A DNA stretch of 64,000 nt from Planktothricoides raciborskii GIHE-MW2 (lineage in GTDB: Bacteria > Cyanobacteriota > Cyanobacteriia > Cyanobacteriales > Laspinemataceae): NCBI RefSeq assembly GCF_040564635.1, contig NZ_CP159837.1, forward strand, positions 6,435,001 to 6,499,000, written 5' to 3'. The notes beneath the pieces are model-generated. The model was not told the DNA's origin. It did not search any database and saw nothing but the letters and a program-made list of their open reading frames with translations. Positions 10,244 to 56,239 of the stretch are shown here, piece by piece; the first letter of the stretch is position 1; each line of letters opens with the position of its first letter. The position numbers and the translations under genes were made by a program.

Positions 10244-10839
10244 ATTATTTCTTAACTCCTTCCGATGACCCTCAGTAAGCGACTAAGGGCTTATCTGATA
10301 TGCTGCTGACAAAACTTGGTGACATTTTTTCTGCGTTTATTCTATAATAAAATTGAACGATGATCTAGTGTATATCTAGTGTAAAATATCTTATATCTGC
10401 GAGGAAATTTAGTCTATCGTTACCGAATGATTGATTGGCATGACCCCAGTAGAAATATATGGGGTAGTCCATCGGAGTCAAGACAATACAAAAGAATGCT
10501 TTCCCAAGCTAAAACGCCTAGTGGCGCCCTTTTCCGCCCTCGGTTGGGGGGATCGCTCCGTCCCATTTGCACTCTTGTCTAATATACTAAAAAATATTCC
10601 GAGATCAATTTTGGGTTAATGATGACGATCGCCTCTCAGCTTACCTGGGATAAAAAACGACAAATAGGCCAGGTTATAATTAAACTTATATGGCCATTGT
10701 TCTATTGTTTTTTGATTTATGCTTTACTCCCATCAATTTTTTCAAAAAATTCATCACCATTCATCACCAATGGGTCAATGAATCAGCAAAATTAATCAGC
10801 AATCAGCAAAATTATTGGCGAATAAATCAGTAAGAGGAC
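10244..10839. other. Intergenic region upstream of the WD40 gene
   Basis: A 596-bp A/T-rich spacer. A 62-codon open frame at 10431-10619 has no recognisable motif, no ribosome site and proline-rich, repeat-like content, so I do not call it. Near the 3' end there are overlapping copies of ATCAGCAAAATTA (10785-10815). The promoter of the WD40 gene must lie here but no clear -35/-10 pair stands out. Confidence 0.5.
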
Positions 10840-20659: not shown

Positions 20660-20689
20660 TTGACAAATTTGCCAATAAACTGATAGTAT
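20660..20689 (+). promoter_or_regulatory. Sigma-70-type promoter for the structured RNA
   Basis: TTGACA at 20660-20665 and TAGTAT at 20684-20689 are separated by 18 bp. It is one of the best consensus promoters I could see. It points into the structured region at 20740-20890 and away from any coding sequence. Confidence 0.6.
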
Positions 20690-20739
20690 ATAGTCATCAA
20701 GAATAATTCAGGTTTATTGGGGCAGGAAAAACATCCAAC

Positions 20740-20890
20740 AAGCCCAAACGATACCTGGGACTACCCGGCCCGGAGTGGCGAAAAAAGTAAGAGCGAAAAA
20801 CCCATAACCTCTCCGGGCCTGGTAAAATCCCTAACTCGTTTCAAAACTCACTTCGGGGAGCCCAGGTGAGGGGCTTCCTCTTGGGCTTTT
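20740..20890 (+). ncRNA. Rod-like structured RNA, 6S RNA candidate
   Basis: Three helices nest in order. AAGCCCAA (20740-20747) pairs with TTGGGCTT (20881-20888). ACCTGGG (20753-20759) pairs with CCCAGGT (20861-20867). TACCCGGCCCGGAG (20762-20775) pairs with CTCCGGGCCTGGTA (20811-20824) with one mismatch. A mostly unpaired stretch (20825-20860) opposes a short 5' linker, the closing stem runs into TTTT, and a consensus promoter lies upstream. A closing stem, an internal bubble, an apical hairpin, ~150-195 nt and a U-tail together describe 6S RNA, which binds RNA polymerase by imitating an open promoter. The structure is seen directly; the 6S identity is inferred and could be wrong. Confidence 0.5.
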
Positions 20891-20894
20891 AATC

Positions 20895-21075
20895 GGAGAA
20901 ACCGGGTTTCTTTTCGGGATATCTGCATCTGTGGAATCCAAAAAAGAAACCCGGTTTCTTGCTTGGGAGAAAGAGAAAGCGATCGCTATTTGAAAATCAA
21001 ATAACTCCAGAAACCGGGGTTCTTTTCGGGATATCTGCATCTGTAGGATACCCAACAGAAACCCGGTTTCTGTTG
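20895..21075. repeat. Paired GAAACCGGGTTTC palindromes
   Basis: Two head-to-head modules follow one another. Each has AGAAACCGG(G)GTTTCT-type palindromes about 45 bp apart around the shared spacer TTTTCGGGATATCTGCATCT (20897-20959 and 21009-21075). The family recurs at 20352, 20407, 27932, 27982, 38933, 47556, 47573, 50111, 50128, 54150 and 54195. The last palindrome lies just past the arsA-like stop and could act as its terminator. Confidence 0.85.
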
Positions 21076-38977: not shown

Positions 38978-40255
38978 ATGAGTGGTAGCCCTAAATATTC
39001 CAGTGCGGAACTAGACCGCCAACGCCAAGAAAAACTGGAACGCGATCGCCGAGAACGGGCAGCAGAAGAAGAACGGCGCCGCCAAGAAGCGGCAGCCCGG
39101 GAAAAGCAACGTCGCCTAGAAAATCGTCGGACTAAAGTGCGGGAACAGGCGCAAAAGTTTCAGGCTGAATTGTCCCAACAACAAGCTAACCTGTATCCCA
39201 AGGCAGCCCAAACTCTGCAACAACAACTGCAACAGCATCAGCAAAAGATCCAAACAGCCCAGTCCGAACCGACTTTACAAGAAATTTCTCAGCATCTGGA
39301 ACAATTGCAACAGGAAATGCAGGGTCATATTGCCCAAAAACGGCGCGATGATGAGGAGAAAAAGCGCCAAGCGGAACTGGACCGGCAACAGTTTGCCCTG
39401 GAAGAGTTGCAACGGCAATTAACGCAAATTCCCGATGGGGCTAAGTTTGCCCCCCAGTCTGAAGCTGATATAGCACAAAAACTGCAAAATGTCAAGCAAT
39501 TCATCCAAACTGGCAACCCGATCGCCGTCCGACAACCCCTGCAAGCGGCAGAACAAGCCCTGGCACAACATCGCCAACGAGTGACCGAACGCCGCGCTGA
39601 GTGGCAACGACGCCAAGCCCAAGCAGAACAACAGTTAGGAGACTTGCAAGCCCTGATTGCCGGACTGCAAGCAGACCCGGTAGTGATGCGGTGGCAGCCC
39701 CAAGAAGTCGCGCAACTGGAAAGTCAAATCGCGGCGGCAACACAAGCGATTACCTCGGAACAGTTCGAGGTAGTGGGTGAAATTCTGGCCACTTGCCAAC
39801 AGCAAAGCCAAAATACGATTAAAACTGCCAACGCCGCCCAACTTAAAGCAGACCAACGGGACTACATTGCCGATAGTATCGCCCAAAGCTTAGAGTCTCT
39901 GGGTTTTAGCATTCTCGCCCGCCAAGCGGAACATCCCGATAACCCTGCCAGTGCGGTAATTTTGGGCGCGGCCACCTATGCGGGGAAAGGTATTAGCGTT
40001 AGCATTCCCGTGGAAGGGGAAGTTTTCTACGATGTGGAGGGCTATAGCAAGAGTACGGAAGCGGCTGTGGGTGGGGGTTCGGCGGCAACCTGCGATGAAG
40101 CCGAAGCGGTGCTGAATGAAATGGGCAAAATTCTGGAGACGGAGTTTGGGGTACAAATGGGCGAGTTGCAATGGGAGGGAAAGGACCCTAACCGGAATAT
40201 TCACCAAGCGGATAGCCTCCCCCGTAGTCAGGGTTCGCGATCGCGGACTGCGTGA
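38978..40255 (+). CDS. Coiled-coil protein with small C-terminal globular domain
   Basis: A 425-residue protein; ATG 38978 follows AAGGAG. Residues 10-290 are almost continuous coiled coil, rich in Arg, Glu and Gln, with heptad-like EERRRQEAAAREKQRR and LQQQLQQHQQKIQ segments. Residues ~295-405 are globular (YIADSIAQSLESLGFSILAR..., SAVILGAATYAGKGISVSIPVEGEVFYDVEG..., AEAVLNEMGKILETEFG). I do not recognise the family. It lies directly before the AAA+ gene, so it may be an adaptor or substrate-binding partner. The last ~15 residues read into repeat-like DNA and may be recently added. Confidence 0.82.
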   Translation: MSGSPKYSSAELDRQRQEKLERDRRERAAEEERRRQEAAAREKQRRLENRRTKVREQAQKFQAELSQQQANLYPKAAQTLQQQLQQHQQKIQTAQSEPTLQEISQHLEQLQQEMQGHIAQKRRDDEEKKRQAELDRQQFALEELQRQLTQIPDGAKFAPQSEADIAQKLQNVKQFIQTGNPIAVRQPLQAAEQALAQHRQRVTERRAEWQRRQAQAEQQLGDLQALIAGLQADPVVMRWQPQEVAQLESQIAAATQAITSEQFEVVGEILATCQQQSQNTIKTANAAQLKADQRDYIADSIAQSLESLGFSILARQAEHPDNPASAVILGAATYAGKGISVSIPVEGEVFYDVEGYSKSTEAAVGGGSAATCDEAEAVLNEMGKILETEFGVQMGELQWEGKDPNRNIHQADSLPRSQGSRSRTA

Positions 40256-40272
40256 ATCTGAATACACCAAGC

Positions 40273-40336
40273 GGGCGCAAGCATTGCAGGGCGCAAGCAT
40301 TGCAGGGCGCAAGCATTGCAGGGCGCAAGCATTGCG
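40273..40336. repeat. Four tandem 16-bp units before the AAA+ gene
   Basis: GGGCGCAAGCATTGCA occurs three times and GGGCGCAAGCATTGCG once, end to end. It lies between the coiled-coil stop and the AAA+ ribosome site, and the last unit runs into CCCCTAC of the GTAGGGGCG repeat family. Confidence 0.97.
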
Positions 40337-40367
40337 CCCCTACACCCCTAGTTTCGAGGACACCACC

Positions 40368-42395
40368 ATGAACTTTCCGCTAATTTCCGCTCGTTGGATT
40401 TCTGACTTTGACAAACAACTACACCGCCGCAGTCATATTCTCCTTTACGGTGATATTCACGACCCCTTAGTATGGCGGGGAAACTATCTGTCTATTCAGG
40501 ACTTTCTGAGCAGCTATTTCCAAGAACTCGACTTTAACCTGATCCTCCGCTATGACAGTATTGATGGGTTCACCTTTGCCGAACCGCAGATGCAGCAAGA
40601 GTTCCAGCGGATTTCTCAGGAACAACTCCGCCATCGTCATGGGGCAGCCCCAGACCTGCAACCTCCTAATGCTAATCCTGCTCCTAATGGTAATCCTGCT
40701 CCTAATGGTAATCCTGTGGCTGCACCACCTCGCGGCAACCCAGGGGCCGTTCTGCAACAACGTGGCAATGCTCAACTAAATCGCCGCATTCCCCCAGAAG
40801 AAGCTTTTGGACAATTGCGTTCTGTCCTCTGCCAAACCGAAACCGCGATCGCCGCAGTCATCGATTTGGGAGATATGCTCACTGCTGACCCCGATCGCTA
40901 TGCTACGGAAGAACGCAACGCGCTGATTTTGCTGCAACGCTGCACTTTAGAAGCGGCGACGATCCAAGCAGGAACACTTCGAGGCTACCGCAATACGGTG
41001 ATAATTTTGGCCAGCGACTTGAAACGAGTTCCCGTCTGGTTCTACAACAACAATCCTTATGTCAATTTAGTCCAAGCCACCTATCCCAACAAAGCCGAAC
41101 GAAAATATTTTGCTTTGCGCTTTGGGGCAAATTTCTATGAGGGCGATCGGCTAAATGCGCGATCGGCTAACCCAAACCAAGCCTCGGAACTCGAACAAGT
41201 CGCCGAAGAATTCGCCGACCTCACCGACGGGTTTAAAACGATGGACTTAGAAGCCCTGCGTCTGACGTCAATTCAAAACCGTCTGCCTTTGAATCAACGA
41301 GACGCTATGCGCTTAGTGGACTTCTATAAATTCGGACAGCGAGACGAACCCTTTGAACAACTCAGCCGGGAAAAAGTGTCTCGGGCTGCGGAAACTTTGT
41401 CCCAAGAAGTCATCGGACAACCTCGGGCAATTCAAGCGGTGACGGATATGCTGACCACAGCGAAGGTGGGCATCAGCCTCAGCCAAGTTCGCGGACGCAA
41501 CAGTAAACCAAAAGGCGTCTTTTTCTTTGTCGGTCCGACCGGGGTGGGCAAAACGGAGTTAGCCAAATCTCTCAGTCGTCTGATTTTTGGAGACGAGGAA
41601 GCTTTCGCCCGATTTGATATGAGTGAATATAAAGAGGAACACGCTGCGGAAAAGTTGGCCGGTTCTCCTCCGGGTTTTGTGGGCTATGAAGAAGGGGGAC
41701 AATTGACCAACCGCGTTTTAGCCAATCCCTATAGCATTCTGTTATTTGATGAGATTGAAAAAGCACATCCAAAGGTATTGGACAAGTTTCTGCAAGTTCT
41801 CGAAGATGGTCGCTTAACTGATGGTAAAGGGCAGACGGCTTATTTCAATCAAACGGTAATTATTTTTACTAGCAATATCGGGGCTTCAGATTTAACCGAC
41901 CCGCAAACCGGGGCGCTAATTCGTCCCGGAATTATGAATCAAGTACAGCATGAAGGAACGAGTCAGTACACTTATGACCAAGTTAACCAGCATTTTCGTG
42001 AGGAAGTAAGCTGGTATTTTTCCAGCCGAATTGGTCGAGCCGAATTACTGAACCGCTTAGGGGATAATATTGTCGTGTTCGACTTGTTGCGATCGCAATT
42101 TGTCACGCAAATTGGTCAGAAGTTTTTGGGACAATTGCAAGCATCATCCCAAGAAAAATATCGGTTATCCCTGAAATTTGATGCCTCGATTTTAACCGGG
42201 TTAACTGATTCTATGCAAGCCGGAGATAATTTGCTGTTTGGCGGTCGGAGAATTAAAACTTTGCTAGAAAGTTTGGTAGAACGACCTTTAAATCGGTGGA
42301 TTTTTGATAATTATGTCAATCTATCAGAGATGGCTGGACAAACTTTAGAATTAAGTTTAGAGGTTGATAATAAATTGCGGGTTCAGCGTTCATAA
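40368..42395 (+). CDS. ClpB/ClpA-like AAA+ ATPase with degenerate N-terminal ATPase-like domain
   Basis: A 675-residue protein. ATG 40368 follows TCGAGGA; a longer frame (from 40116) reads through the preceding gene and repeats and is rejected. Residues 1-310 resemble a degenerate AAA-like module (SHILLYGDIHDPLVW, ALILLQRCTLEAATIQ, NTVIILASDLKRVPVWF) without a Walker A, interrupted by an Asn/Pro repeat (NPAPNGNPAPNGN). The second module is a complete ClpB-type ATPase: GPTGVGKTELAK (389-400), SPPGFVGYEEGGQLTNRV, Walker B LLFDEIEKAHP (Asp461-Glu462) and sensor FTSNIG. It probably remodels or unfolds a partner; the coiled-coil protein upstream is the best candidate. No ClpP-binding loop is obvious. 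Confidence 0.9.
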   Translation: MNFPLISARWISDFDKQLHRRSHILLYGDIHDPLVWRGNYLSIQDFLSSYFQELDFNLILRYDSIDGFTFAEPQMQQEFQRISQEQLRHRHGAAPDLQPPNANPAPNGNPAPNGNPVAAPPRGNPGAVLQQRGNAQLNRRIPPEEAFGQLRSVLCQTETAIAAVIDLGDMLTADPDRYATEERNALILLQRCTLEAATIQAGTLRGYRNTVIILASDLKRVPVWFYNNNPYVNLVQATYPNKAERKYFALRFGANFYEGDRLNARSANPNQASELEQVAEEFADLTDGFKTMDLEALRLTSIQNRLPLNQRDAMRLVDFYKFGQRDEPFEQLSREKVSRAAETLSQEVIGQPRAIQAVTDMLTTAKVGISLSQVRGRNSKPKGVFFFVGPTGVGKTELAKSLSRLIFGDEEAFARFDMSEYKEEHAAEKLAGSPPGFVGYEEGGQLTNRVLANPYSILLFDEIEKAHPKVLDKFLQVLEDGRLTDGKGQTAYFNQTVIIFTSNIGASDLTDPQTGALIRPGIMNQVQHEGTSQYTYDQVNQHFREEVSWYFSSRIGRAELLNRLGDNIVVFDLLRSQFVTQIGQKFLGQLQASSQEKYRLSLKFDASILTGLTDSMQAGDNLLFGGRRIKTLLESLVERPLNRWIFDNYVNLSEMAGQTLELSLEVDNKLRVQRS

Positions 42396-42409
42396 AATCA
42401 ATAAATCCG

Positions 42410-42910
42410 CATTGGGGGCTTTATGTCAAAAAGAGTTTTTGGCACCAATGGTGTATGAAGGATATTCTACATCTCAGGTAATTGAGACAAAGGCTAGAAC
42501 AAGTGTTATTACTCAATCTCAAAAAAGGTCAAGTCATAATTAGGCATAATGCCCGGTTCCATCAAGGAAAAAAGTCAGATAATTAATTGAGAATGCGGGT
42601 TGTGAATTATTATTTTTACCAAAGGGAACAGGCAACAGGCAACTACTGCTACAGACAACAGGATGCTAATGAAAGAGGTGAATTATGAAAGAGGAAAACT
42701 CTCTCTTCTCTCTTCTCTCTTCTCTCTTCTCTCTTCTCTCTTCTCTCTTCTCTCTTCTCTCTCCTCCGAACCGCGTTCCCCAATATTCTCCTGACTTAAA
42801 TCCAATTGAGCATTGGTGGCAAAAAAATCAAGAACGCTATCAAAAAAGAACTCCACCAGTATGATTTTAATCTCGATAAGGCGGTAGATGCAGTATTTGC
42901 GTATTTGTAG
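42410..42910 (+). pseudogene. IS630-family transposase C-terminal remnant
   Basis: Successive frames give GALCQKEFLAPMVYEGYSTSQV, then (frameshift) LEQVLLLNLKKGQVII, then (stop and shift) IENAGCELLFL. About 170 bp of foreign DNA with a CTCTCTT microsatellite (42693-42765) follows, then PQYSPDLNPIEHWW and IKNAIKKELHQYDFNLDKAVDAVFAYL ending at TAG 42908. These are the second half of the DDE domain of IS630 transposases, in the correct order. The catalytic Glu motif (SPDLNPIEH) is intact, but the gene is dead. Confidence 0.88.
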
Positions 42911-44345
<1,435 letters not shown>

Positions 44346-44640
44346 ACAATTCTGGCAAAATATCTGGCAAAATAAGCGATCGATCCTCCCAACCCCCCCT
44401 TAAAAAGTAAACCACACCCGTCGGGGATTAAAATCCCCGCCTCATAGCGCAAGTCGGTTTTAACCGACTAATCATGCTTGGTAGGGGTCAACGACCGTTG
44501 GCCCCTATAACAGCCCTTGACCCGTAAAGAATTTTAGTCAGTTTTAACCGACTGTAGGGGTCAACGGCCGTTGACCCCTACAGTCGGGATTTAATTCCCT
44601 GGCGGTTAATGTGGTTTATCTATCTGAAAAGCCCTGTAAG
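44346..44640. other. Spacer occupied by a MITE-like repeat
   Basis: After ~60 bp following the tocopherol cyclase stop, the space is the left MITE copy (44408-44618). No gene was seen. Confidence 0.8.
44408..44618. repeat. MITE-like element, left copy
   Basis: It runs from TAAACCACACCCG to TGTGGTTTA, 211 bp, and is built of nested palindromes: CGGGGATTAAAATCCCCG, GTCGGTTTTAACCGAC, GGGGTCAACGGCCGTTGACC. Its first 73 bp match the right copy in inverse orientation (45271-45343) with one mismatch. It carries an extra inner block that the right copy lacks. Confidence 0.88.
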
Positions 44641-45024
44641 CTAAGTTTTGACCAATTCTTCTGCGACATTTTCAGTAACTACATTGTCAGTAACCGGGTA
44701 ATCTATTTTTTCCGGTTCATTATCAACTTTAACGGTTAATTTTAATCCCACAACTTGCAGCCATTCAGCTAAATTATAAATCACCTCACTGCCACCATTA
44801 GATAGCAATCGTTCCAGCTTTTCTAGGTGAATTTTAACTTCTTCTGGGGTGAGGCGATCGCCTGCCAATGCTTGAGCAACATCTTTGAGGGCCAAAGCCA
44901 ATAGTGCCTGGTCGGGTGCTTCGTCTTTTTCTAATTCTAAATGAGTTTCCACATAGCCAACGGCATAGTTGCGATCTTTTAACTTGGCCATCAAAAAATC
45001 ATCATAAGATACAGATTTATTCAT
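44641..45024 (-). CDS. HigA/COG3636-like antitoxin
   Basis: A 127-residue protein. SYDDFLMAKLKDRNYAVGYVETHLEL and ALLALALKDVAQALAG resemble putative addiction-module antidotes, which have a Cro-like helix-turn-helix after a short N-terminal helix. Here the central part (EEVKIHLEKLERLLSNG...IYNLAEWLQVVGLKLTVKV) keeps the end of that domain. The C-terminal 25 residues are acidic and unique. The expected partner, a HigB-like toxin, lies upstream on the same strand as a truncated remnant (45384-45512). The toxin-then-antitoxin order is that of higBA modules. The family match is moderate. Confidence 0.65.
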   Translation of the reverse strand: MNKSVSYDDFLMAKLKDRNYAVGYVETHLELEKDEAPDQALLALALKDVAQALAGDRLTPEEVKIHLEKLERLLSNGGSEVIYNLAEWLQVVGLKLTVKVDNEPEKIDYPVTDNVVTENVAEELVKT

Positions 45025-45090
45025 AGTTTTAACTCCGATATTCTAAATAGCCCCCTTTTTACAGCGGTTTTTAGATTAAAAAACCACATT

Positions 45091-45170
45091 AGACCTCTTG
45101 CAAAATAAATATTTCGACCCCCCCAACCCCCCTTTTTAAGGGGGGCTTTTAGGAATTTTGCAAGAGGTCT
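45091..45170. repeat. 80-bp element with 16-bp perfect inverted ends
   Basis: AGACCTCTTGCAAAAT (45091-45106) and ATTTTGCAAGAGGTCT (45155-45170) are exact inverted repeats. The interior is a CCCCCCTTTTTAAGGGGGG palindrome of the same family as that in the VWA gene. Confidence 0.92.
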
Positions 45171-45171
45171 A

Positions 45172-45343
45172 TTAACCACATTAACCACATTAACCACATT
45201 AACCGCCAGGGAATGAATTCCCTGGCTAATAGCTAAAGTCGGTTAAAACCGACTGAAATTCTGATAAATACAAGCATAATTAGTCGGTTTTAACCGACTT
45301 GCGCTATGAGGCGGGGATTTTAATCCCCGACGGGTGTGGTTTA
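45172..45343. repeat. MITE-like element, right (inverted) copy
   Basis: 172 bp running from four TTAACCACA-type units (TTAACCACAT repeated) and ACCGCCAGGGAAT to CGGGTGTGGTTTA. 45271-45343 is the inverted partner of 44408-44480 (72 of 73 bases). The two copies bracket the antitoxin gene. Confidence 0.9.
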
Positions 45344-45360
45344 CTCAGTCTGGTGTAAAA

Positions 45361-45399
45361 GCTTTCTTGTCTAGCTTTCTTGTCTAGCTTTCTTGTCTA
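45361..45399. repeat. Three 13-bp tandem units at the broken end of the toxin remnant
   Basis: GCTTTCTTGTCTA occurs three times in a row. The stop codon of the toxin remnant (45384-45386) is the TAG of one unit, so the repeat created the truncation or marks its repair. Confidence 0.92.
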
Positions 45400-45512
45400 T
45401 CGATCGTAGTTTTGGCTTTTTCGTCTTGGAGAGAATCAAACCACTTGGAAAAAGGAATCTTTCCCGCAGGGGTGATGTAAAGTTGAATATCTCTTGGTTG
45501 TGCTTCTGCCAT
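45384..45512 (-). pseudogene. HigB-like toxin (COG3657-type), N-terminal remnant
   Basis: 42 codons from ATG 45512: MAEAQPRDIQLYITPAG, then KIPFSKWFDSLQDEKAKTTID, ending RQES and TAG. This is the N-terminus of putative addiction-module killer proteins (RelE/HigB fold), normally ~95-110 residues. The rest, with the catalytic region, is missing. The break coincides with a 13-bp tandem repeat. The antitoxin gene follows on the same strand after ~360 bp of inserted repeats. Confidence 0.78.
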
Positions 45513-45725
45513 ATCATTCTAGCTAAGGTATCTTTGAGAAACAGGGTTTCTTGGTCAACCGTCTCACTTGAGTACCAAGTCAGCCCCGAGACAGAAAACT
45601 GAAATTTAACCAAAAAATCTGATTTCTCAGGATTGATCTGGTTAAATTACCAACTTGATCTGTTACAATTATTCATAAATTCTGCTGAATACAAACTAAT
45701 ATCACGTTTATCCTAGACGCAAGTT

Positions 45726-47519
45726 ATGAGTCTTCCCATTCGCAACGTCGCTATCATTGCCCACGTCGATCACGGCAAAACCACTCTGGTGGATGCCCTC
45801 CTGAAACAATCTGGTATTTTTCGTGAAGGGGAAGACGTCCCTGATTGCGTCATGGACTCCAACCCCCTGGAACGGGAACGGGGGATTACGATTCTCTCCA
45901 AAAATACCGCCGTTCGCTACAAAGACACCTTAATTAATATTGTGGATACCCCCGGTCACGCTGACTTTGGCGGTGAAGTGGAACGGGTGCTCGGCATGGT
46001 CGATGGTTGTTTGCTAATTGTTGATGCTAACGAAGGGCCGATGCCACAAACTCGGTTTGTGCTGAAAAAAGCCTTAGAAAAAGGACTTCGCCCTATTGTG
46101 GTGGTGAACAAAATTGACCGCCCTCGCGCTGAACCTCATGGGGCAGTGGATAAGGTTTTAGACCTGTTTTTGGAACTCGGCGCCGACGACGATCAGTGCG
46201 AATTCCCCTATTTATTTGCTTCCGGTCTAGATGGATATGCCAAGAAAAACCTGGAAGAAGAAGGGGTGGATATGCAGCCACTATTTGAGGAAATCCTCGC
46301 CCATGTCCCAGCCCCGGTCGGCGATCCTACGAAACCCCTGCAATTACAAGTGACCACTTTGGATTATTCCGAATATATCGGTCGGATCGTGATTGGTCGG
46401 ATTCACAATGGCACCATCAAAGCTGGGCAGCAAGCGGCTTTGGTGAAAGAAGATGGGTCAATTGTTAAGGCCAAAATTACTAAATTGATGGGCTTTGAAG
46501 GGTTAAGCCGCGTGGAAATTGCGGAATCCTCAGCGGGTAATTTGGTGGCAGTGGCGGGTTTTGCCGATGCGAATATTGGCGAAACTATTACTTGCCCCAA
46601 TGAACCCCAAGCCCTGCCACTGATTAAGGTGGATGAACCTACTTTACAGATGACTTTCTGGGTGAATGATTCCCCGTTTGCCGGACAGGAAGGCACTTTT
46701 GTTACTTCCCGTCAGTTGCGCGATCGCCTAATGCGGGAACTGGAAACCAACGTTGCCCTACGGGTGGAAGAAGCGGACACCCCAGATAAATTATTAGTGT
46801 CCGGTCGTGGGGAACTGCACCTGGGTATTTTGATTGAAACCATGCGCCGGGAAGGTTATGAATTCCAAGTTTCCCAGCCCCAGGTGATTTACCGGGAAAT
46901 TGGCGGTCAGCCTTGCGAACCGTTTGAATGTTTAGTCCTGGATGTCCCCGAAGAGGCGGTGGGTGCTTGCATCGAACGCTTGGGACAGCGCAAAGGGGAA
47001 ATGCAAGATATGCGGGTGATTACTGGGGGTCGGACTCAGCTAGAATTTGCTATTCCCGCACGGGGATTAATCGGTTTCCGGGGTGAATTCCTGCGGATCA
47101 CCCGTGGGGAAGGGATTATGAACCATAGCTTCTTGGATTATCGTCCTTTATCTGGGGATGTGGAAACCCGCCGCAATGGGGTGATTGTGGCTTTTGAAGA
47201 AGGAACCGCTACTTTCTATGCCCTGAAAAACGCTGAAGATCGCGGAGTTTTCTTTATTACTCCCGGTACTAAGGTGTATAAAGGCATGATTGTGGGCGAA
47301 CATAATCGTGCTCAAGATTTGGATTTGAATGTCTGCAAAACCAAGCAGTTGACGAATATGCGATCGGCTAGTGGCGATGAATTAGTTCAGCTACAAACGC
47401 CGATTGATATGAGTTTAGAACGGGCGTTAGAATATATCAGTTCTGATGAACTGTTGGAAGTGACCCCGGAATCGATTCGTCTGCGGAAGATGAACGCGAA
47501 GAAATTAGCGAAACGCTAA
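45726..47519 (+). CDS. typA: Translational GTPase TypA/BipA
   Basis: A 597-residue protein. GTPase motifs: G1 AHVDHGKTT (12-20), G2 RERGITI, G3 [17 protein letters not shown]4 NKIDRP. Then EF-G-like domains III and V and the TypA-specific C-terminal domain ([26 protein letters not shown]...). It binds the ribosome and assists 50S assembly and stress adaptation, notably in cold. It starts at ATG 45726. It stands alone and is followed by a GAAACCGGGTTTC repeat pair that may act as terminator. Confidence 0.97.
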
Positions 47520-47540
47520 AGAAAACCCTGGAAAAAATAT

Positions 47541-47594
47541 GGGGGCAACCGCAGAAGAAACCGGGTTTCTGTGCAGAAACCCGGTTTCTGGCTT
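47541..47594. repeat. Direct repeat left of the restriction-modification genes
   Basis: GGGGGCAACC, then a pair of AGAAACCGGGTTTCT / CAGAAACCCGGTTTCT palindromes, ending GGCTT. It matches 50095-50148 at 52 of 54 positions in the same orientation. Confidence 0.95.
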
Positions 47595-47642
47595 AATTTT
47601 TAACTTAATCATATAGACAAAATTTTATAGGCAGGATTTTTA

Positions 47643-49079
47643 ATGGCGATCGGTCTGTCAAGCATCTCTAATATCATCCCTCAAGCAGAAACAGAAAATC
47701 TCAGGGAAATTGATATCCTTGACAAGCAATTATATGACCACTTTAAAACTAAATTTTTAGTCCAATCCTCCCTGACTAGACTTTTAGTCAGCTTTCAGGC
47801 AAATAAAACCAAACCAATGTATCGGTGGTACAAGTATAAAGAGGCGTTTTCCGCTTCTTTGGTGGAGTTTTTATTCCAGAAATATGAGATTTTCCAAGGG
47901 AAGATTTTAGATCCTTTTGCAGGGAGCGGGACGGCTTTATTTGCTGCCGGGGATCTGGGTCTTGATGGTGATGGCATTGAATTATTGCCCATTGGTCAAA
48001 CCATAATTGAGACGAGAAAAATTTTTAATTCTGAATTTACCTCCGATGATATTGCCCGTTTAAAAGACTGGGTTAAATTGCCGTTATGGAAAAATTTTGA
48101 ACATGAAACAAGTCTGCCAGAATTTAGAATTACTCAGGGGGCTTATTCCCTAGAAACTAAAACAGCCATTGAGGAATATATAGCCCGGTGCGATCGCGAA
48201 AATCCCAGAGTAAAAGCAGTTTTAATGTTTGCTTTACTTTGTATCTTGGAATCCGTAAGTTATACCCGAAAAGATGGGCAATATCTGCGGTGGGATTATC
48301 GTTCTGGTCGGGGTTCGGGGAAAAAACCTTTTAACAAAGGTGAAATTTTAACCTTCGAGATTGCCATCAGTCAGAAAATCAATGAAATCATCAATGATTT
48401 AGAACCAAACATAGAGCAAATCGAGCTTTTTCCCACCCAAAAGCCGCAAGGTCTGATTAATTTGTACAAAGGATCTTGTTTGGAATTAATGCCCAGTTTA
48501 CCTGATGCCAGCTATGATGCTATTATGACCTCTCCCCCCTATTGTAATCGATATGATTACACTCGTACTTATGCCTTAGAACTGGCTTTATTGGGGGTTT
48601 CAGAACAGGGATTAATTGAGTTTCGTCAGCAAATGTTAAGTTGTACGGTTGAAAATCGTCCTAAAAATTTGTTAGCTATTAATTCAAACTGGGAATTGGC
48701 TGTAAATCTGGCAGATAGTCAATCTCTATTGCAAGCTATTTTAAAATATTTAGATAACCAAAAAATAGAAGGTTTATTAAATAACAAAAATATCCCCAGA
48801 ATGGTCAAAGGATATTTCTATGAAATGGCTTGTGTCATCCAAGAATGCTCTCGTGTCCTTAAACCAGGAGCGCTTTTATTTATGGTTAATGACAATGTGC
48901 GTTATGCTGGGGCAAGCATTTCCGTGGACATGATTCTTTCTGCCTTGGCTGAAAAAGTAGGCTTTATTGTAGAGAATATTCTGGTTTTACCCAGTGATAA
49001 AGGCAACAGTAGTCAACAGATGGGAAATCATGGCCGCGACCCTTTAAGAAAGTGTGTTTATGTATGGAAAAAGCAATAA
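47643..49079 (+). CDS. DNA amino-methyltransferase of an AvaI-like restriction-modification system
   Basis: A 478-residue protein. Motif I (AdoMet binding) is [20 protein letters not shown] near residue 82, and the catalytic motif IV is [14 protein letters not shown] near residue 295. TSPPY is typical of N4-cytosine methylases. The long gap between the two motifs should hold the target-recognition region. The endonuclease gene follows after 44 bp on the same strand. By analogy with its partner it should protect CYCGRG sites; the modified base is inferred. Confidence 0.9.
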
Positions 49080-49123
49080 ATGAGATGAATTTAAATCAGA
49101 TTAATTTAAATTAATTTAAATCT

Positions 49124-50092
49124 ATGAGCGCTTATCTTAACCATCTGAAATCTAGTGACGATCTGGTGACAACTTATGAAGCCACCCGTGCCGGATTTGT
49201 AGCCCTTGCCCTGGAGAGAAATCGACAGGCTGCACCTTATATTGCCGAAGCAAAAGCACTTCAAGCAGCGGCAAGTCAAGCTGTCAGTGCGGCTGATTTG
49301 CTCAAGATTAAGGATATTGAGGTGGGATTGTTAACAGCGGCAGGACTATCTCAAAAATCTCTTAATTATTTGACTCCAGAAGATAAAATTGATGCAATCA
49401 ATGGGCTGATTCAGAATTTTCTTGAGCCAGCAGCGGCAAATTTTGTGGAGGAATTGGTGTTTAGATTTCTCCTGACTCGTGGTGACACCCTTGGTGGTTC
49501 AATGCGTAATATCGGTGGAGCATTAGCACAAAGAAAGTTAACCCGTGCTATCCTTTCGACTCTGAAAATTGCAGGTCGTCAATATTCTTGGCAAGATTCC
49601 AGGACTAAACAATGGATAGCCATGACCAATGATGATATAGAAATTGAGTTATCTTTACGCGGGATAAACTGGCAGAGTGAAGGAGAGAATCGCACCCTAA
49701 TTTATAATCTGAAGGTGCCATTAGTCAGGAGCAATGTGGATCTATGTTTATTTAATCTTCCCCCGACCGAACTGGTAGTGAATAAATCCAGTAAAATTCA
49801 GCCATCTGAAACTGCACCATCTATCATCGCTTTGGGTGAACTAAAAGGAGGCATAGATCCAGCCGGAGCAGATGAGCATTGGAAAACAGCACAAGCCGCA
49901 CTAAATCGGATTCGGGAAGCATTTTCTAAAGTTGGCTATTTTCCTAATACTTTCTTTGTCGGATCGGCAGTAGCAAAAAGGATGGCCGATGAAATTTGGC
50001 ATCAACTGGAGGAGGGGACGCTCACTAATGCGGCTAACCTGAATCAAGAGAATCAAGTTGCATCGATCGCTCGTTGGCTATGCAATTTATAA
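49124..50092 (+). CDS. AvaI/BsoBI-family type II restriction endonuclease
   Basis: A 322-residue protein, close to AvaI (315) and BsoBI (323) in length. It matches the family throughout as I recall it: STYEATR-like [36 protein letters not shown], and the catalytic core NVDLCLFN (Asp206) and [18 protein letters not shown] (Glu239, Lys241, His252). In BsoBI the Asp, Glu-x-Lys and a His are the active-site residues. The expected recognition sequence is CYCGRG. It follows its methylase and ends 2 bp before a direct repeat. No controller gene is visible. Confidence 0.95.
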
Positions 50093-50094
50093 CT

Positions 50095-50148
50095 GGGGGC
50101 AACCCCAGGAGAAACCGGGTTTCTGTGCAGAAACCCGGTTTCTGGCTT
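50095..50148. repeat. Direct repeat right of the restriction-modification genes
   Basis: It has the same 54-bp module as 47541-47594, beginning 2 bp after the endonuclease stop codon. The two copies enclose exactly the methylase and endonuclease genes. Confidence 0.95.
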
Positions 50149-50171
50149 GATTATGATGCGGCTAATTCTCA

Positions 50172-51470
50172 TCAATTTTGGCAAAAATTTCTGACATATT
50201 CTTGCATCACGGGAGATAGTTGAAATAAAAGCCGTTCGCGGTTAATTTTCCTGACTAAATAACGCTGTTGTAAAGATTGCAACCCATTCATTAAGTCCAT
50301 TGAAGATAAGTCTAAACGTTGCCTAAGTTCTTCTCTGGATAAAGCTTGGTCTTGACTCAAGGCTAAAATAAGTTGCTGTTCGCTGGGGGAAAGTCGGTTA
50401 AATAGCTGCTGCAAAGCAACCTGCATTTCTTTGGTGATGACCAAAGTATTCTCGTCTAAAAACTCAGCTACATGACCGGCAAAAATATTTTTAATTAAAA
50501 TCGCAATACTTTTTAAATCAGCGGGATTTCCTTGATATAAATTAAGCAGCGAAGTCCAGCTATCTTCATCTTGTAATCCTGTATGGTTGAGGATTTCTAC
50601 CCCATCTAATCTTGATAACTCTAGGCATTTAATGGGATATAACTCTTCGTCTAAGCATTCCATTTCCGCAGATTTTTCTTGACTGATTAAAATTAAATGA
50701 CTTTGATGGTCACGTCCGGCGATCGCTTTAAAAAAGTTTTGATAATCTTGATATTCTGGTTGATATTGTCCGGCAAATTAACCAGGGATAAATAGATTTT
50801 GCACATCATTCATCCAGGATGATTAAACACCGTTTTTCCGCGAACAGGGCAAATAATTGTTTGAGGCGATCGCTCATAGTTTATTTTGGTTCTTGATGAC
50901 AAACTTGCAATAAATCATTGACCAAGACATCCAAAGATTCGGGAAATTTTAAGTTTCGCCAAATGATGATTTCAAATCGATCTAAGGTGCGATTCCGCGA
51001 AGCGGATCCGGAAAGGGAATCGACCAATCTTTTCACCAGAGTAGTTTTGCCAATTCCCGATAATCCTAATACGGCGATTAAACGAGTATTTTGATTAATT
51101 AACCAGTCGGATAGGGTTTAGAGTTCCGTATCTCTGCGATAAAAATGAATAATTTTCGGGGCTAAGGTTAAATCGATTTTTTGGGATTTATCTTCATTTT
51201 TTGGTTCTTGTTCTTGAGATGGATAAGGATATGAACAAAATTTAAAATTATGGCTGCTTTGTATATTAATAAATTGTGATGATTTTAATTCTAACCTTTC
51301 AAAAGTTGATCGAAAATTATTTTTTTTAACATCCTCACCCAATGCTTCTGATAAGATTTGCCATAGTTTATAACCCACATCTCTAACATAGCGCTCACTC
51401 AAGTGAGATATACGGGCAATTTCCTCATAAGTTGTACTTTCCTAAACTCCCTTAATCACTGTTTATCCAC
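50172..51470 (-). pseudogene. NB-ARC (STAND) NTPase gene, decayed
   Basis: Family pieces appear in order on the minus strand: TYEEIARISHLSERYVRDVGYKLWQ (the vMAP-like N-terminal helical domain seen in cyanobacterial NB-ARC proteins); a stop after RRDTEL; TLSDWLINQNTRLIAVLGLSGIGKTTLVKRL (P-loop); FEIIIWRNLKFPESLDVLV; a stop; CLIILDE (Walker B); further frame breaks; then an intact tail LELSRLDGVEILNHTGL...YQGNPADLKSIAILI...FNRLSPSEQQLILALS (winged-helix region), to TAA 50172. There are at least three disabling changes. Intact relatives are signalling NTPases often linked to conflict or cell-death functions. Confidence 0.85.
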
Positions 51471-51559
51471 GGTTGCTAAATCTCCTAAAAAAAGTGGAGA
51501 GCAGCACCTCCGACTCCAATCGGTAGCGGTTGCCTTCAACTTTCCACGGTGATTATACT

Positions 51560-51910
51560 TTATTTCTTAGGATAGATTTCATCCATCAATGATTGCCAGA
51601 TAAGTTCTGTCATCCGCGCCGCTGTCCGCTGAATCGCTAGTTTCTTCCATTTTTTCTGAGTGTCTTCTTCTTCTTTTGGTAAGTAACTTTCTACAGAAAT
51701 AGACCGCTCGATCGCTGCTTTCATGTCAGCCAATATTTGATAATCTATTATCTCCTTGAATGGCTTGTCTAAGGCTGCTTTGGCTTTTTTGATTGCTTGT
51801 TTTCGTTCGCGTTCGGCGATCGCACGTGGATCGGTATTCCACCGATGTACCAGGCTTTTGTAGTAGGAAAGCACCAAGTCTTGCTGCTTTGTCGTGCAGT
51901 AAGGAGTCAT
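51560..51910 (-). CDS. Hypothetical protein whose ATG is supplied by the IS end
   Basis: An open frame of 116 residues, rich in Lys, Glu and Arg (AIAERERKQAIKKAKAALDKPFKEI...), probably helical. Its first codons ATG ACT CCT lie across the left end of the ISAzo13 element (51903-51910) and the 3-bp target duplication, so the original start was elsewhere or upstream. Joined across the IS the frame would meet TAG, so it may be the remnant of a longer gene. I do not recognise it. Confidence 0.4.
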   Translation of the reverse strand: MTPYCTTKQQDLVLSYYKSLVHRWNTDPRAIAERERKQAIKKAKAALDKPFKEIIDYQILADMKAAIERSISVESYLPKEEEDTQKKWKKLAIQRTAARMTELIWQSLMDEIYPKK

Positions 51911-53244
51911 GTAAAAATAAGTTGGTCAATTATGCCTCGACTCGGGGCTTAATGATATAGTTCCATTCACCCCGAAAAGAGTGGAGCGAAATCACAATAG
52001 AATTAAACTCTTGGTCGGTCACTTTGATTCCTGTTTCGTAGCGACTTTCATCTAAGTTGGCTTGCACTTCTAATCCTTCCAAGGTCGTTGTATTTTTAAT
52101 TAAATTAATCAGGACTTGCAAGCTTGTTATTGGTCTGCCCCGCCAATTTTGAGTCAGATGACAGAATCAGCGATGCTCAATTTTATTCCATTTACTGGTT
52201 CCCGGAGGAAAATTACAGACTTGAATCGGTTTCTGAATTTCGTCGGCCAACTCTTGGAGTTTTAACTTCCAGAGTCTCGACCGATAGCTATTACTTCCTC
52301 CACAATCTGCTGTAATCATTATCTTTTGACTATGGGGATAACAATCTTTTCCCATTGACTGCCACCAATGACGAATTGATTCCACCGCAAATTCCGCTGT
52401 ATCATGGTCAATTCCCACATTGACCCATCCTTTATTCTGGGTTAAATCATAAATCCCATAAGGAATAGCTTTACCCAAATTTGGGTCTACAAAGTCATGC
52501 CTTCGGACTTCAATAGGCGGCGCCTTAAGCGTCCACTCTTTTCCTTCGTTTTTAAAGTCTCCAATTAATTCTTTTTTCTTGGTATCAACAGAGATTACGG
52601 GTTCGTTGGCGGCTTGAAAACTTTTGACTTCTGAATAAATATGTAAAAATTGCTCATCTCTATCTTGACAAGATGAGCCATCCCGAGTTTTCCGATTTGA
52701 TTGTAAGCTATAGCCTAGATGTTCTAGTAAATTATAAACGCTTTTTGGACTGATTCTATGTCCCCCACCATTTAGCTCTTTGGCCAGTTTGGCTACACTG
52801 TTACAAGTCCATTTTAGCGGAGACTCCGGGTCTCCCAATGTCATAGGTTCTATCAAGGATTCCAAATCTGATAGCAGCATTCCATCTTTTTCTTCTAGTA
52901 ATTTACGTCCACCCCCCTGACGACGGATCCGAGGAAGCTCTTTTTCTGATGGAGTGCCCGAAGATTCAGACAGTTCGCGGATTCCGGAATTTATTGTCGT
53001 CCGGGATAGTCCAGTTGCCTTGGCAGTAAGTGTTACACCTCCCCATCCCAAAGACAAGGCTTCACAAGCTGCCCAAATCCTTCGTGTTTTTTCATTCAAA
53101 TAAGGTGATAATGACTAATATTTATCTTTAATGCTTTAATGCTTTTGAGGGTTTCGTTATCCACAATCATCAGGCTCGCGGTAGCGCTACTTCTTGATTA
53201 TCCCACTTCCGGTCTAATTGGTCAACTTATTTTTACACGACTCC
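51903..53244 (-). mobile_element. ISAzo13-family insertion sequence, complete ends
   Basis: Terminal inverted repeats: GGAGTCATGTAAAAATAAGT at 51903 and its partner ACTTATTTTTACACGACTCC ending at 53244 (a ~30-bp imperfect match). TAA directly flanks both ends (51900-51902, 53245-53247), a 3-bp target duplication. It contains one transposase gene, now with a nonsense codon. The element is 1342 bp. Confidence 0.9.
51930..53099 (-). pseudogene. ISAzo13 transposase with a single in-frame TGA
   Basis: 389 codons. The N-terminal helix-turn-helix (GVTLTAKATGLSRTTINSGIREL) is followed by the DDE core: VISVDTKKKELIGDFKN (first Asp), HDTAEFAVESIRHWWQ, ITADCGGSN (second Asp) and PPGTSKWNKIEHR (catalytic Glu). 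The stop TGA at 52169-52167 follows EHR. The same frame continues FCHLTQNWRGRPITSLQ...TGIKVTDQEF...GEWNYIIKP to TAA at 51930, the normal C-terminus. Only one base change separates it from an intact gene. The catalytic Asp-Asp-Glu residues precede the stop, but the truncated form lacks ~80 residues. Confidence 0.93.
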
Positions 53245-53247
53245 TAA

Positions 53248-53700
53248 CGCTATGGAAACACGCGGATGTCGAAATTAAATGACACACCTTAGTCAACCCT
53301 GACAAATCCCCTTATGACGGAGATTGGGTTTATTGGAGTACCAGGCGAGGACAAGACATTGAACCCCCTACAAGAGTGGCAAAACTGTTGAAAAAACAGA
53401 AGGGCAAATGCCCATATTGCGGGCAATACTTCACAAGCAGCGACCCGTGAGAAGTAGACCACATCATACCTAGAAGCTTAGGTGGAAAGGATGAATACAA
53501 AAACCTGCAATTGCTTCACGCTCATTGTCACGACTTAAAGTCAAGATATGACGGAAGCGCCCAAGGGCGGAGGAAGAACTACCACTCTGGTAGACGTACC
53601 TGTGTAAAAGGTCAATTTAGGTAGGAGCCTAGTGCCGTGAAAGTGGCACGCTGGGTTCTGAATGGGAGGTGGGGAGAACGATTTCCCCATCGACCCCTAA
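53248..53700 (+). mobile_element. Group II intron 3' remnant (maturase HNH domain plus domains V and VI)
   Basis: The end of an intron-encoded protein can be read: SPYDGDWVYWSTRRG, VAKLLKKQKGKCPYCGQYF, an in-frame TGA, EVDHIIPRSLGGKDEYKNLQLLHAHCHDLKSRYD (HNH motif with Cys and His ligands), ending near 53620. Directly after it, 53625-53660 folds as domain V: GAGCC pairs with GGTTC, and GTGCC with GGCAC around GTGAAAGT. A second hairpin (GGTGGGGAGAACGATTTCCCCATC) fits domain VI. The 5' part of the intron and the reverse transcriptase are missing, cut at the IS element. Confidence 0.88.
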
Positions 53701-53754
53701 TAAATATGAAGTTATCCTGTTAATTGTTGATATTGAAAAATAAGAAGTCAGAAA

Positions 53755-54093
53755 ATGGACAAATTAACCGATTATCAAAATTTTCTTAAAAAAATCTTAA
53801 ATGAGTATGAAATAATCTCAGCACAAGTCCCCGATCCTGATATAGATGAGGTCTTAATGTTTGACGATCAAATGAGTGAATATTTTTGGTTTAATATTGG
53901 CTGGAAAAATAAGCGACGAGTTAAGGCAATTTTTGTTTATGTTCGCCTTAAAAATGAGAAAATTTACATTGAGGAAGATTGGACAGAGGAGGGAATTAGT
54001 GAGTTGTTAAGGGAGGGAGTGCCGTCCAAGGATATTGTGTTAGCGTTCCATGATCCTGAGAGTCGGAAGTTTACGGATTTTGCGATTGCTTGA
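53755..54093 (+). CDS. xisI: XisI-like protein (fdxN-element excision controlling factor)
   Basis: A 112-residue protein. MDKLTDYQNFLKKILNEYE, FDDQMSEYFWFNIGWKNKRRVKAIFVYVRLKNEKIYIEEDWTEEGI and LLREGVPSKDIVLAFHDPE are the whole XisI pattern. XisI and XisH, originally linked to excision of the fdxN element in heterocystous cyanobacteria, form a common pair whose biochemical role is not clear. XisH, normally just upstream, is absent here; the group II intron end occupies that position. It is therefore an orphan copy, probably vestigial. Confidence 0.93.
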   Translation: MDKLTDYQNFLKKILNEYEIISAQVPDPDIDEVLMFDDQMSEYFWFNIGWKNKRRVKAIFVYVRLKNEKIYIEEDWTEEGISELLREGVPSKDIVLAFHDPESRKFTDFAIA

Positions 54094-54253
54094 GTCAGGT
54101 TGGTAAGGCGATCGCTATAGTTGTTTTATCTGGATCGATCGCCAATAAACCGGGTTTCTCTGGTGGGCCGATCGCATGACTTTGGCCTGCCAAAAAGAAA
54201 CCCGGTTTCTAGGAAGTTTTGGGAAATAACTTATTTAGAGTTATTTATTAGAC

Positions 54254-56239
54254 TTATTTAGTGGCGCGATCGGTTAAAGTGGTGAGCACTTGGTTAGAAC
54301 GCTGGACAAAGGCTTTCATCCCATCAGCATCAAAGCCTTTTTGGGCCATTAAAGCCAGGTCATAAACGTGCTGACAAATCATATTTGCCAGTTCCCCAGA
54401 GGGAGAAGTGCCATCAGGCCCAATAATGGTGCCACTGCTGAGTTGAGCCAGATTTTTGATTAAGGGGTGGGCAGTATTTACTAATAAAATATGTTCTTCG
54501 GGGAATTTGGCGACTTCTTGGGACATGAGGGCACTCATATCTTGAATTCGGCGCATGAATTCCGGTAAGAGTACCATTGCCGGAGGACTGCCTTGGGGGT
54601 CGGAGGATTTGAGGGCTTCGGTACGAATATTTACCTTGGGTTTGTTCAGCGCTTTTTCAAAGATTTCTTTGATTTGTTCGCTGCGGGTTTTGTTGGTGGT
54701 GGGGTCAACAATTTCTTTTTCTTGGTCTTTGTCCAAGAGTTTGTCGTCAATTTCCGAGTCTACCCGTGAGAATTTAACATCGGTGTGTTCCCGTTCTAGG
54801 AAGGAAATAAAGTGGGTGTCGATGAAGGAGTCCATAATTAGGACTTCTAAGCCTTGACTCTTATGGAGTTGAATGTAGGTGGCTTGTTGGGCTTCATCGG
54901 TGGCATAGAACACCCGGTTTTCATGGCGTTCTTTGTTGCGGTCTAGGTAGTCTTGGAGAGTGGTGTAAGAGCCCCATTGAGTCCCCCCTTTGCTATTTTT
55001 TGGGGTGACATCTTGCCAAACGTCTCCCGCTTCGGACTGGACTTCCACTGCTGGGGTTTCCGGTTCGGCTTTACTCAGGTCAGCGGTGGTGCGGAAGATG
55101 ACGATATCGTTGACTTGTTTTTTGAATTTGTCGTCGTTGAGGCAGCCAAATTTGACGAAGGTGCCAATGTCTTGCCAGCAACGAACATATTCGTTCCAGT
55201 CTTGTTTGTAGAATTCGTTGAGGCGATCGCCTACTTTTTTGGCGACAAAATCGGCAATCTTGCGGACGGTGCGATCAACTTGTAAGGCGCTACGGGAAAC
55301 GTTCAGAGGAATATCCGGGCTGTCAATCACCCCGCGCATAGGCAGCAAGAATTTGGGAATAATTTCCTCAACGTGCTCGCTGACAAAGACGTGATTGCAG
55401 TAGAGTTTAATTTCCCCTTTGGTGACATCCACATCAGGGCGCAGTTTGGGGAAATAGAGAATGCCGTTAATGTCAAACGGATAGTCAGTTTTGAGATGTA
55501 CCCACAGCAGAGGTTCATCTTGGAACGGATAAAGATAACGATAGAATTCCAGATAGTCTTCTTTGGTCAGGTTGTTGGGAGACTCTCGCCAAGGGGACTT
55601 TTGTTTGTTGATCGCTTCCCCGTCGAGTTTGATGGGTACGGGCATAAAGTCACAGTAGGTTTTCACCAACTGTTTGATTCGAGAAGCTTCAGTGTATTCT
55701 TTTTCTTCGTCGAGCAGGTGTAGGGTGATGGTGGTGCCGCGAGTGGTGCGGGTGGAATCTTCCAAGGTGAAGGAGGGAGAACCGTCACAAGACCAGTGAA
55801 CCGCTTGGGCGCCTTCTTGATAAGACAGGGTATCGATTTCTACTTTGCTAGAAACCATGAAGGATGAGTAAAAACCCAGCCCGAAGTGACCGATGATTTG
55901 TTCTCCGGCAGATTTGTATTTTTCTAGAAATTCCTCGGCGCTGGAGAAGGCGACTTGGTTAATGTATTTTTTCACCTCGTCAGCGGTCATGCCAATGCCG
56001 TTGTCGGAAATGGAGAGGGTGTTTTTGCTGCTGTCGAGTTCGATGGTGATTTCCGGTTCGCCTACGTCCCCCTTGAATTCGTCGCTGAAGGACACCATTT
56101 TCATTTTGGTGATGGCGTCTACGGCGTTGGACATCAGTTCCCGAAAGAAGACTTCGTGACCAGAGTAGAGGGACTTCTTGATGATCGGGAAGATGTTCTC
56201 GGTATGGATCGTAATGTTGCCCTGTTCGAGTACGGCCAT
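54254..56239 (-). CDS. htpG: Molecular chaperone HtpG (Hsp90)
   Basis: A 661-residue protein. N-terminal GHKL ATPase: FFRELMSNAVDAITKM, SISDNGIGMTADEVKKYI, GHFGLGFYSSFMVS and TTITLHLL. The middle domain holds VPIKLDGEAINKQKSPWRESP and the catalytic-loop Arg region MRGVIDSPDIPLNVSRSALQVD. The C-terminal dimerisation domain has LMSQE...HILLVNTAHPLI. It is an ATP-dependent chaperone needed for heat and oxidative stress survival and phycobilisome assembly in cyanobacteria. The start is ATG 56239. A GAAACCGGGTTTC pair follows its end. No CIRCE-like inverted repeat was seen upstream. Confidence 0.97.
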   Translation of the reverse strand: MAVLEQGNITIHTENIFPIIKKSLYSGHEVFFRELMSNAVDAITKMKMVSFSDEFKGDVGEPEITIELDSSKNTLSISDNGIGMTADEVKKYINQVAFSSAEEFLEKYKSAGEQIIGHFGLGFYSSFMVSSKVEIDTLSYQEGAQAVHWSCDGSPSFTLEDSTRTTRGTTITLHLLDEEKEYTEASRIKQLVKTYCDFMPVPIKLDGEAINKQKSPWRESPNNLTKEDYLEFYRYLYPFQDEPLLWVHLKTDYPFDINGILYFPKLRPDVDVTKGEIKLYCNHVFVSEHVEEIIPKFLLPMRGVIDSPDIPLNVSRSALQVDRTVRKIADFVAKKVGDRLNEFYKQDWNEYVRCWQDIGTFVKFGCLNDDKFKKQVNDIVIFRTTADLSKAEPETPAVEVQSEAGDVWQDVTPKNSKGGTQWGSYTTLQDYLDRNKERHENRVFYATDEAQQATYIQLHKSQGLEVLIMDSFIDTHFISFLEREHTDVKFSRVDSEIDDKLLDKDQEKEIVDPTTNKTRSEQIKEIFEKALNKPKVNIRTEALKSSDPQGSPPAMVLLPEFMRRIQDMSALMSQEVAKFPEEHILLVNTAHPLIKNLAQLSSGTIIGPDGTSPSGELANMICQHVYDLALMAQKGFDADGMKAFVQRSNQVLTTLTDRATK

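Follow-up and report, generated by a model that had tools for sequence, protein, structure and literature searches.

Introduction

AvaI and BsoBI cut and methylate CYCGRG, and a type II restriction-modification system of their family is recognised by an endonuclease gene beside that of its cognate methyltransferase. Cyanobacteria are also home to the small mobile repeats of Elhai et al. 2008, which are said to be very small, dispersed and apparently mobile, a description that the repeats considered here share.

Dispersed palindromes have been tied to Y1 transposases in two related settings. In REPIN-RAYT systems, palindromic REP units lie in extragenic inverted pairs and flank the RAYT gene itself, and in GTAG REPs the units have a GT[AG]G foot; as described in the part of PMC3733652 used here, GTAG-12, -15 and -16 REP systems are known in cyanobacteria, and REP ends can supply stop codons. 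The same part of that study describes TIRYTs and TIRtrons, in which the terminal inverted repeats flanking a Y1 transposase make up families of repeats, and names no cyanobacterial TIRYT. A 2018 survey connects these TIRYTs with a transposase subclass 2.1, for which its table lists the motifs NHYH, FQ and YIHLNP, and, in the sections on which we draw, it reports having found no REP-like neighbours for that subclass (PMC6006769). Integrons in cyanobacteria, with restriction functions among their cassettes, are known in general terms from two further papers (PMC8618304, PMC2426708).

Here, a BsoBI/AvaI-type gene pair bracketed by two palindromic direct repeats in Planktothricoides raciborskii GIHE-MW2 is compared with these systems. 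In our preferred reading, to which we give a probability of about 0.8, the brackets are members of a dispersed palindrome family moved by a transposase, and the restriction pair was probably gained by horizontal transfer at an earlier time, with no dependence on them.

The restriction-modification pair and its two modules

The DNA analysed, called the window throughout, is a stretch of 64,000 nt at positions 6435001–6499000 of contig C1 of the 7.2-Mb genome (G000), and is 99.9% identical to Planktothricoides sp. SR001 across 10.9 kb. The order along it is typA, left module, methyltransferase, endonuclease and right module. The typA/bipA gene, for a translational GTPase, occupies 45726–47519 (+; TIGR01394, 963.8 bits against a cut-off of 757.3); the DNA methyltransferase gene 47643–49079 (+; PF01555; PADLOC type II methyltransferase PDLC03224, E 4.9e-160); and the type II restriction endonuclease gene 49124–50092 (+; PF09194, E 9e-160; BsoBI, PDB 1dc1, E 3.1e-109). 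These matches uphold the original prediction of an AvaI-like restriction-modification pair downstream of typA, and with the endonuclease beside its cognate methyltransferase the pair belongs to the BsoBI/AvaI family, its enzymes resembling the known ones with nothing notable in them. The methyltransferase has a TSPPY motif, which is typical of N4-cytosine or N6-adenine enzymes. The methyltransferase–endonuclease order recurs in 16 of the 17 loci examined, the 17th (L058) being interrupted by a contig end.

Several other features lie nearby. Upstream of typA is a 75-bp inverted repeat, 96% complementary (44406–44480 and 45271–45345), which contains smaller palindromes such as AGTCGGTTTTAACCGACT and is perhaps another dispersed repeat. 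To the right of the pair, 50172–51402 (-) holds interrupted reading frames, ATPase-like by eye only and collinear in the related genome S07.Bin090; a Pfam search with a 163-aa piece of them gave no match. An ISAzo13-type transposase gene (PF07592; 52167–53099, -) follows just past 51464, where collinearity with S07.Bin090 ends, and a XisI-family protein (PF08869) is encoded at 53755–54093 (+).

The two modules are direct repeats at 47540–47598 and 50094–50152 (both +), 59 nt each, identical at 56 of 59 positions and 2554 bp apart. Their description in the original prediction is accurate: within a 54-bp stretch they match at 52 positions, they enclose exactly the two genes, and the right copy lies 2 bp past the endonuclease stop, which ends at 50092, the 54-bp copy beginning at 50095. 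Each module consists of an extension (GGGGGCAACC[G/C]CAG[A/G]AG) and a near-perfect palindrome of 34 bp whose loop is GTGC; the palindromes lie at 47556–47589 and 50110–50143. The left extension reads GGGGGCAACCGCAGAAG; at the same place in S07.Bin090 the left module is present as GGGGGCAACCCCAGGAG... Searched with a free loop and up to three mismatches, the 34-bp core (AGAAACCGGGTTTCT-GTGC-AGAAACCCGGTTTCT) has two matches in the window against none in 100 shuffles, which excludes chance as the source of the repeats. Both modules are strong palindromes, so that they are inverted as well as direct repeats of each other. Across the 7.2-Mb genome, the extension joined to the arm start has exact matches at the two modules only, four other matches having three mismatches, and a whole 63-bp query matched full-length only at the same two places (40 of 698 candidates scored).

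The folding energies of the 76-nt module stretches are -29.4 kcal/mol (z -5.4) and -39.7 kcal/mol (z -6.1). Folds of -29 to -40 kcal/mol just past two stop codons, in cyanobacteria, which lack Rho according to the part of PMC13289151 used here, are what would be expected if the modules had been selected as 3'-end hairpins of typA and the endonuclease, serving as terminators or mRNA stabilisers, with their position reflecting function and not mobility. No clear T-run is apparent by eye, however, the endonuclease gene of the sister genome lacks the hairpin altogether, and the clusters and tandem arrays in which such elements occur elsewhere are not expected of terminators. As an explanation of the arrangement this is unlikely, although a 3'-end role and mobility are compatible and not exclusive of one another.

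One module in the sister genome

S07.Bin090 (JAABRM010000019.1; G001), a metagenome-assembled genome, is the only genome of the same genus in the search for relatives. It carries typA, module, methyltransferase and endonuclease in the window's order at 97.7% identity, has the left module only, and after the endonuclease runs straight into the sequence found past the window's right copy. A 68-bp stretch (50092–50159, +), present in SR001, is absent from it, the blastn blocks stopping at 50091 and restarting at 50160. This stretch starts within the endonuclease stop codon, which is TAA in the window, its last base coming from the stretch, and TAG in S07.Bin090; besides the right module, the sister genome is missing 2 bases before it and 7 to 11 after it, the range depending on where the module is taken to end. 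As the pair is present there with a single copy, the gain or loss of the second copy did not involve the genes.

Over its first 55 bases (50094–50148) the window's right copy matches the left copy of S07.Bin090 exactly, whereas the window's own left copy differs from that of S07.Bin090 at two positions in the 54-bp stretch. The simplest order of events would therefore begin with a left element after typA, common to window and sister; a second element, a close copy of the left one, would then have arrived at the endonuclease stop in the window lineage, and two later changes would have affected the window's left copy. No microhomology or target duplication is visible at the right-copy joint in the alignment with S07.Bin090, because of which a gain is favoured. 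The polarity rests on two distinct lineages, SR001 being 99.9% identical to the window, and on sequence comparison the right copy looks like a gain in the window lineage; it may instead have been lost by deletion in S07.Bin090.

Such a loss is needed if the pair was inserted with a long target duplication, doubling a 59-bp repeat of which the sister later lost the right copy, a process reportedly proposed for Helicobacter restriction systems. Exactly two genes are enclosed, and the identity of the right copy with the sister's left copy over 55 bp is as expected of a duplicated target. Yet the later loss in S07.Bin090 would have to leave a joint without repeat, and the target would belong by coincidence to a family of 1442 arms. 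We regard this as quite improbable.

The original prediction had been that recombination between the repeats inserts or removes the whole pair, a simple cassette mechanism without a transposase. The repeats are direct, agree at 52 of 54 positions and form a unique pair with exactly two genes between them, and recombination between them is physically possible. Against the proposal stand the sister genome, in which the same site holds the genes and a single copy, and the distribution of sites: in 21 typA loci of relatives, none had typA followed by a single repeat and no genes. Arms of the kind found in the modules lie within 150 bp after typA in 3 of the 21 (G001, G002 and G039). G002, which has no endonuclease match, resembles a single-copy empty site at first glance, but was rejected as one: the loop of its element is 20 nt long, the 18-bp extension is missing, and against window positions 40000–56000 typA alone aligns. 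In G039, too, the elements are of another form.

The same conclusion follows from the surroundings of related pairs. Exact direct repeats of at least 16 bp within 3 kb of the pair are absent from 15 of 17 loci; SR001 has the one under study, and L059 has seven. Of the 15 loci from other cyanobacteria in this set (L053–L066 and L094, the upstream side of L058 being truncated), L059 is the only one with such repeats, and its three longest lie 0.5–1.9 kb from the genes. With the module core also common next to other genes, we hold it highly unlikely that the pair is a cassette entering and leaving by homologous recombination between the 54-bp repeats; the repeats are best read as part of a transposase-associated palindrome family.

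Other element sites were compared with S07.Bin090 wherever the two genomes are collinear. The window is collinear with its contig C99 over about 8 kb only, and two other regions were also searched; four further short- or medium-loop sites lie in collinear stretches, elements outside these being left out. Three of the four are absent or replaced, two of which align poorly and so are replacements as much as absences, and one is shared with its arms exchanged. This shared short-loop element (L123:8768 against contig C10 of S07.Bin090) has the look of a palindrome that was either inverted or replaced.

A dispersed palindrome family

The preferred reading places the brackets in a genome-wide family of palindromes, of which they would be two members, with inverted 15-bp arms and loops mostly of 35/36 or 3/4 nt. 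The arm, AGAAACC[C/G]GGTTTCT, occurs exactly 1442 times in the window's genome and 1191 times in S07.Bin090. Exact arms are found in 28 of the 59 genomes searched (the window's included), 24 of them with at least 10. The window itself holds three arm pairs of the same family with 33–37-nt loops at 20354–21071, a member with a 35-nt loop at 27932–27996 and one with a 36-nt loop at 54145–54210, none with an assigned strand.

Family structure was assessed in a 464-kb sample made up of 20 stretches of 20 kb, some of them picked around known hits, and the window. Allowing up to two mismatches, this contains 248 arms and 87 G..C inverted arm pairs within 80 bp, with loops of 35/36 nt in 51 and of 3/4 nt in 18. 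The arm centre falls inside an ORF in 39 of the 248, against a coverage of 68% of the sample by ORFs of at least 120 aa; the elements thus settle mainly between genes. There are 63 neighbouring cluster pairs, 24 of which, the restriction-pair modules included, are spaced 1–4 kb apart. Since 21 of these 24 enclose at least one complete ORF, and eight enclose two or more, gene bracketing by the element is ordinary in this genome, and the core, far from being specific to the restriction pair, is common beside unrelated genes. What is unusual about this pair of elements is the shared extension and loop, not the bracketing of genes; TGGGGGCAAC is also found before two other elements in the sample. 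Arms can form tandem arrays, as at G000:C1:933756-934999, with 16 consecutive forward matches at an 82-bp period, and arrays of other periods are found elsewhere.

As high-copy extragenic palindromes in inverted pairs, the arms qualify as REP- or REPIN-like sequences, and like a RAYT gene the associated transposase gene described below is flanked by them. They differ from GTAG REPs in being near-perfect odd palindromes without a conserved foot: base frequencies around 214 distinct arms show no conservation of the GT[AG]G of canonical GTAG REPs. No earlier description of the arm family was found among the open-licence papers searched.

A candidate transposase

The PF01797 profile of Y1 transposases matches six stretches of the genome. 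Two are genes, at 2487566–2488123 and 2510770–2511327, that are 92% identical, encode a 186-residue protein and are both hemmed by arms. The second scores 82.7 bits with the NCBIfam model REP_Tyr_transpos (NF047646; cut-off 80), and the REP-associated tyrosine transposase matches TnpArep (PDB 4er8) at E 1e-4. Of the remaining four, L124 encodes a protein of the IS200 type; no arms lie within about 1.5 kb of L124, L127 or L129, and the nearest to L128 is about 1.2 kb away.

Relatives of the transposase with at least 66% identity are encoded in 10 of the 59 genomes, and all 10 have arms, from 16 to 1442. The other 49, with no close relative, comprise 14 with at least 10 arms and 35 with fewer (Fisher p 3e-5, a value that ignores kinship); as 14 of the 24 arm-rich genomes are without a close transposase, arms can persist or arise without it. 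At the best locus in each of the 10 genomes, arms (up to two mismatches) are found on both sides of the gene, 12–56 bp away on the low side and 9–72 bp on the high side, the upstream arm copies in G020 looking degenerate. By comparison, 8 of 268 ORFs in the 464-kb sample, which includes one of the transposase genes, are flanked within 75 bp on both sides, and no arms were found beside 10 loci whose proteins are more distantly related (58% identity or less, part of those found).

The motifs NHYH, FQ and YIHLNP are invariant across 11 aligned transposase proteins and, as an assignment by motifs only, fit subclass 2.1 or the TIRYT type. The setting agrees with that in the part of PMC3733652 used here, in which TIRYTs and TIRtrons have a RAYT-like gene hemmed by a dispersed repeat, with dimers and clusters and no GTAG tag; flanking on both sides by a GTAG-less dispersed repeat holds at 10 of the 10 best loci of relatives with at least 66% identity. 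There are also differences. The subclass 2.1 protein has 238 residues as tabulated in the portion of PMC6006769 used, against 186 here, and the TIR families are called 'moderately abundant' in the corresponding portion of PMC3733652, against 1442 arms here. The GGGGWSAS motif of many, not all, TIRs lies within 200 bp of the gene in only 2 of 11 loci (L131 and L134); L139 has five matches further off from the gene.

A Y1 (HUH) REP-associated transposase, encoded at two sites in the genome, thus most likely moves or copies the elements in trans. No transposition event has been observed, and the right copy has no clean target-site footprint. A more specific version, in which a transposase of the subclass 2.1/TIRYT type drives, in filamentous cyanobacteria, a tag-less family of well over 1000 arms that spreads preferentially to nearby sites, so that the copy at the endonuclease stop would be a daughter of the typA copy 2.5 kb away, is put forward tentatively, the odds being somewhat against it.

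Related pairs as integron cassettes

A scan of genome contigs gave 53 loci with relatives of the endonuclease; by genome, 7 of 59 have one, the window's included (G034 only at E 8e-4). Eighteen cyanobacterial loci in which the endonuclease is complete or almost so were retained (L051–L066, L094 and L046, the last in genome G016). Four loci from Nostoc in which it is partial (L093, L097, L098 and L101) were kept out of this set and included in the attC model search; more distantly related cyanobacterial pairs, those of G033, G034, G039 and G040, were left out of both.

An integron attC site directly follows the endonuclease in 7 of the 18 loci (L046, L059, L060, L061, L064, L065 and L066); with the covariance model used, none was found after the pair in the other 11. 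The model was built on five sites (L060, L061, L065, L066 and G016), and outside this set it matched L059 (E 4e-8), L064 (E 4e-5) and three more sites in L060 (E 6e-23, 6e-8 and 0.004). In the genome of L066, a Leptolyngbyaceae metagenome-assembled genome, the surroundings of two integrase genes (L159, E 3e-7; L167, E 6e-5) each gave one attC match as well.

L060, from a Spirulinaceae metagenome-assembled genome, has attC sites on one strand at 2776–2862, 4350–4435, 6981–7066 and 10738–10825, the last weak (E 0.004). Its restriction pair, at 4436–6980, fits exactly between the second and third, and is one cassette of an array. The integron integrases at L159 and L167 score 474 and 427 bits (curated cut-off 265); G016 has partial integron integrase matches only, some with stops.

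Folded singly as DNA, the five model sites were equalled by 10, 42, 10, 5 and 121 of 200 shuffles (L060, L061, L065, L066 and G016), and the folding of individual sites is weak evidence for attC. A regular-expression scan, which had found L060 and L065 along with chance-like hits in L057 and L062 (0 to 3 in shuffles), was replaced by the covariance model because it missed degenerate sites. Of the weak model matches, those in L053 (E 0.28) and in L072 (E 0.54) were put down to chance, and the one in L093 (E 0.04) lies away from the gene.

The window, SR001 and S07.Bin090 differ from these seven attC-bearing pairs in having no attC: none was matched at E up to 1 in the window, L038, L051 or L052, and no integron integrase at E up to 0.001 in the window's genome or S07.Bin090. 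The pair was probably acquired horizontally at an earlier time, has no need of the repeats, and may once have travelled as an integron cassette in the window lineage too. No earlier description of an AvaI-type integron cassette was found among the open-licence papers searched.

Shortage of CYCGRG

The AvaI/BsoBI site is scarce in the three pair-carrying genomes sampled. In the 464-kb sample of the window's genome, CYCGRG occurs 55 times against 288 expected from a maximal-order Markov model (55 against 251.5 with arms masked); in 115 kb of S07.Bin090 (C99) the figures are 13 against 72.7, and in 14 kb of G016, where the pair is also present, 0 against 10.2. Seven genomes that lack the pair, pooled to 94 kb, gave 74 against 108.5 expected, G015 alone having 0 against 4.4. 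The shortage fits a long residence of the enzyme, and leaves its specificity unproven.

Conclusions

When a common palindromic element inserts repeatedly and independently, the outcome can be a striking picture of genes between direct repeats, and at this locus one such element is present in one of two sister genomes and absent from the other. A candidate transposase is now linked to a cyanobacterial repeat of very high abundance. AvaI-type pairs of cyanobacteria that bear attC, in one case as a two-gene cassette, may explain the patchy spread of these restriction systems better than the repeats do.
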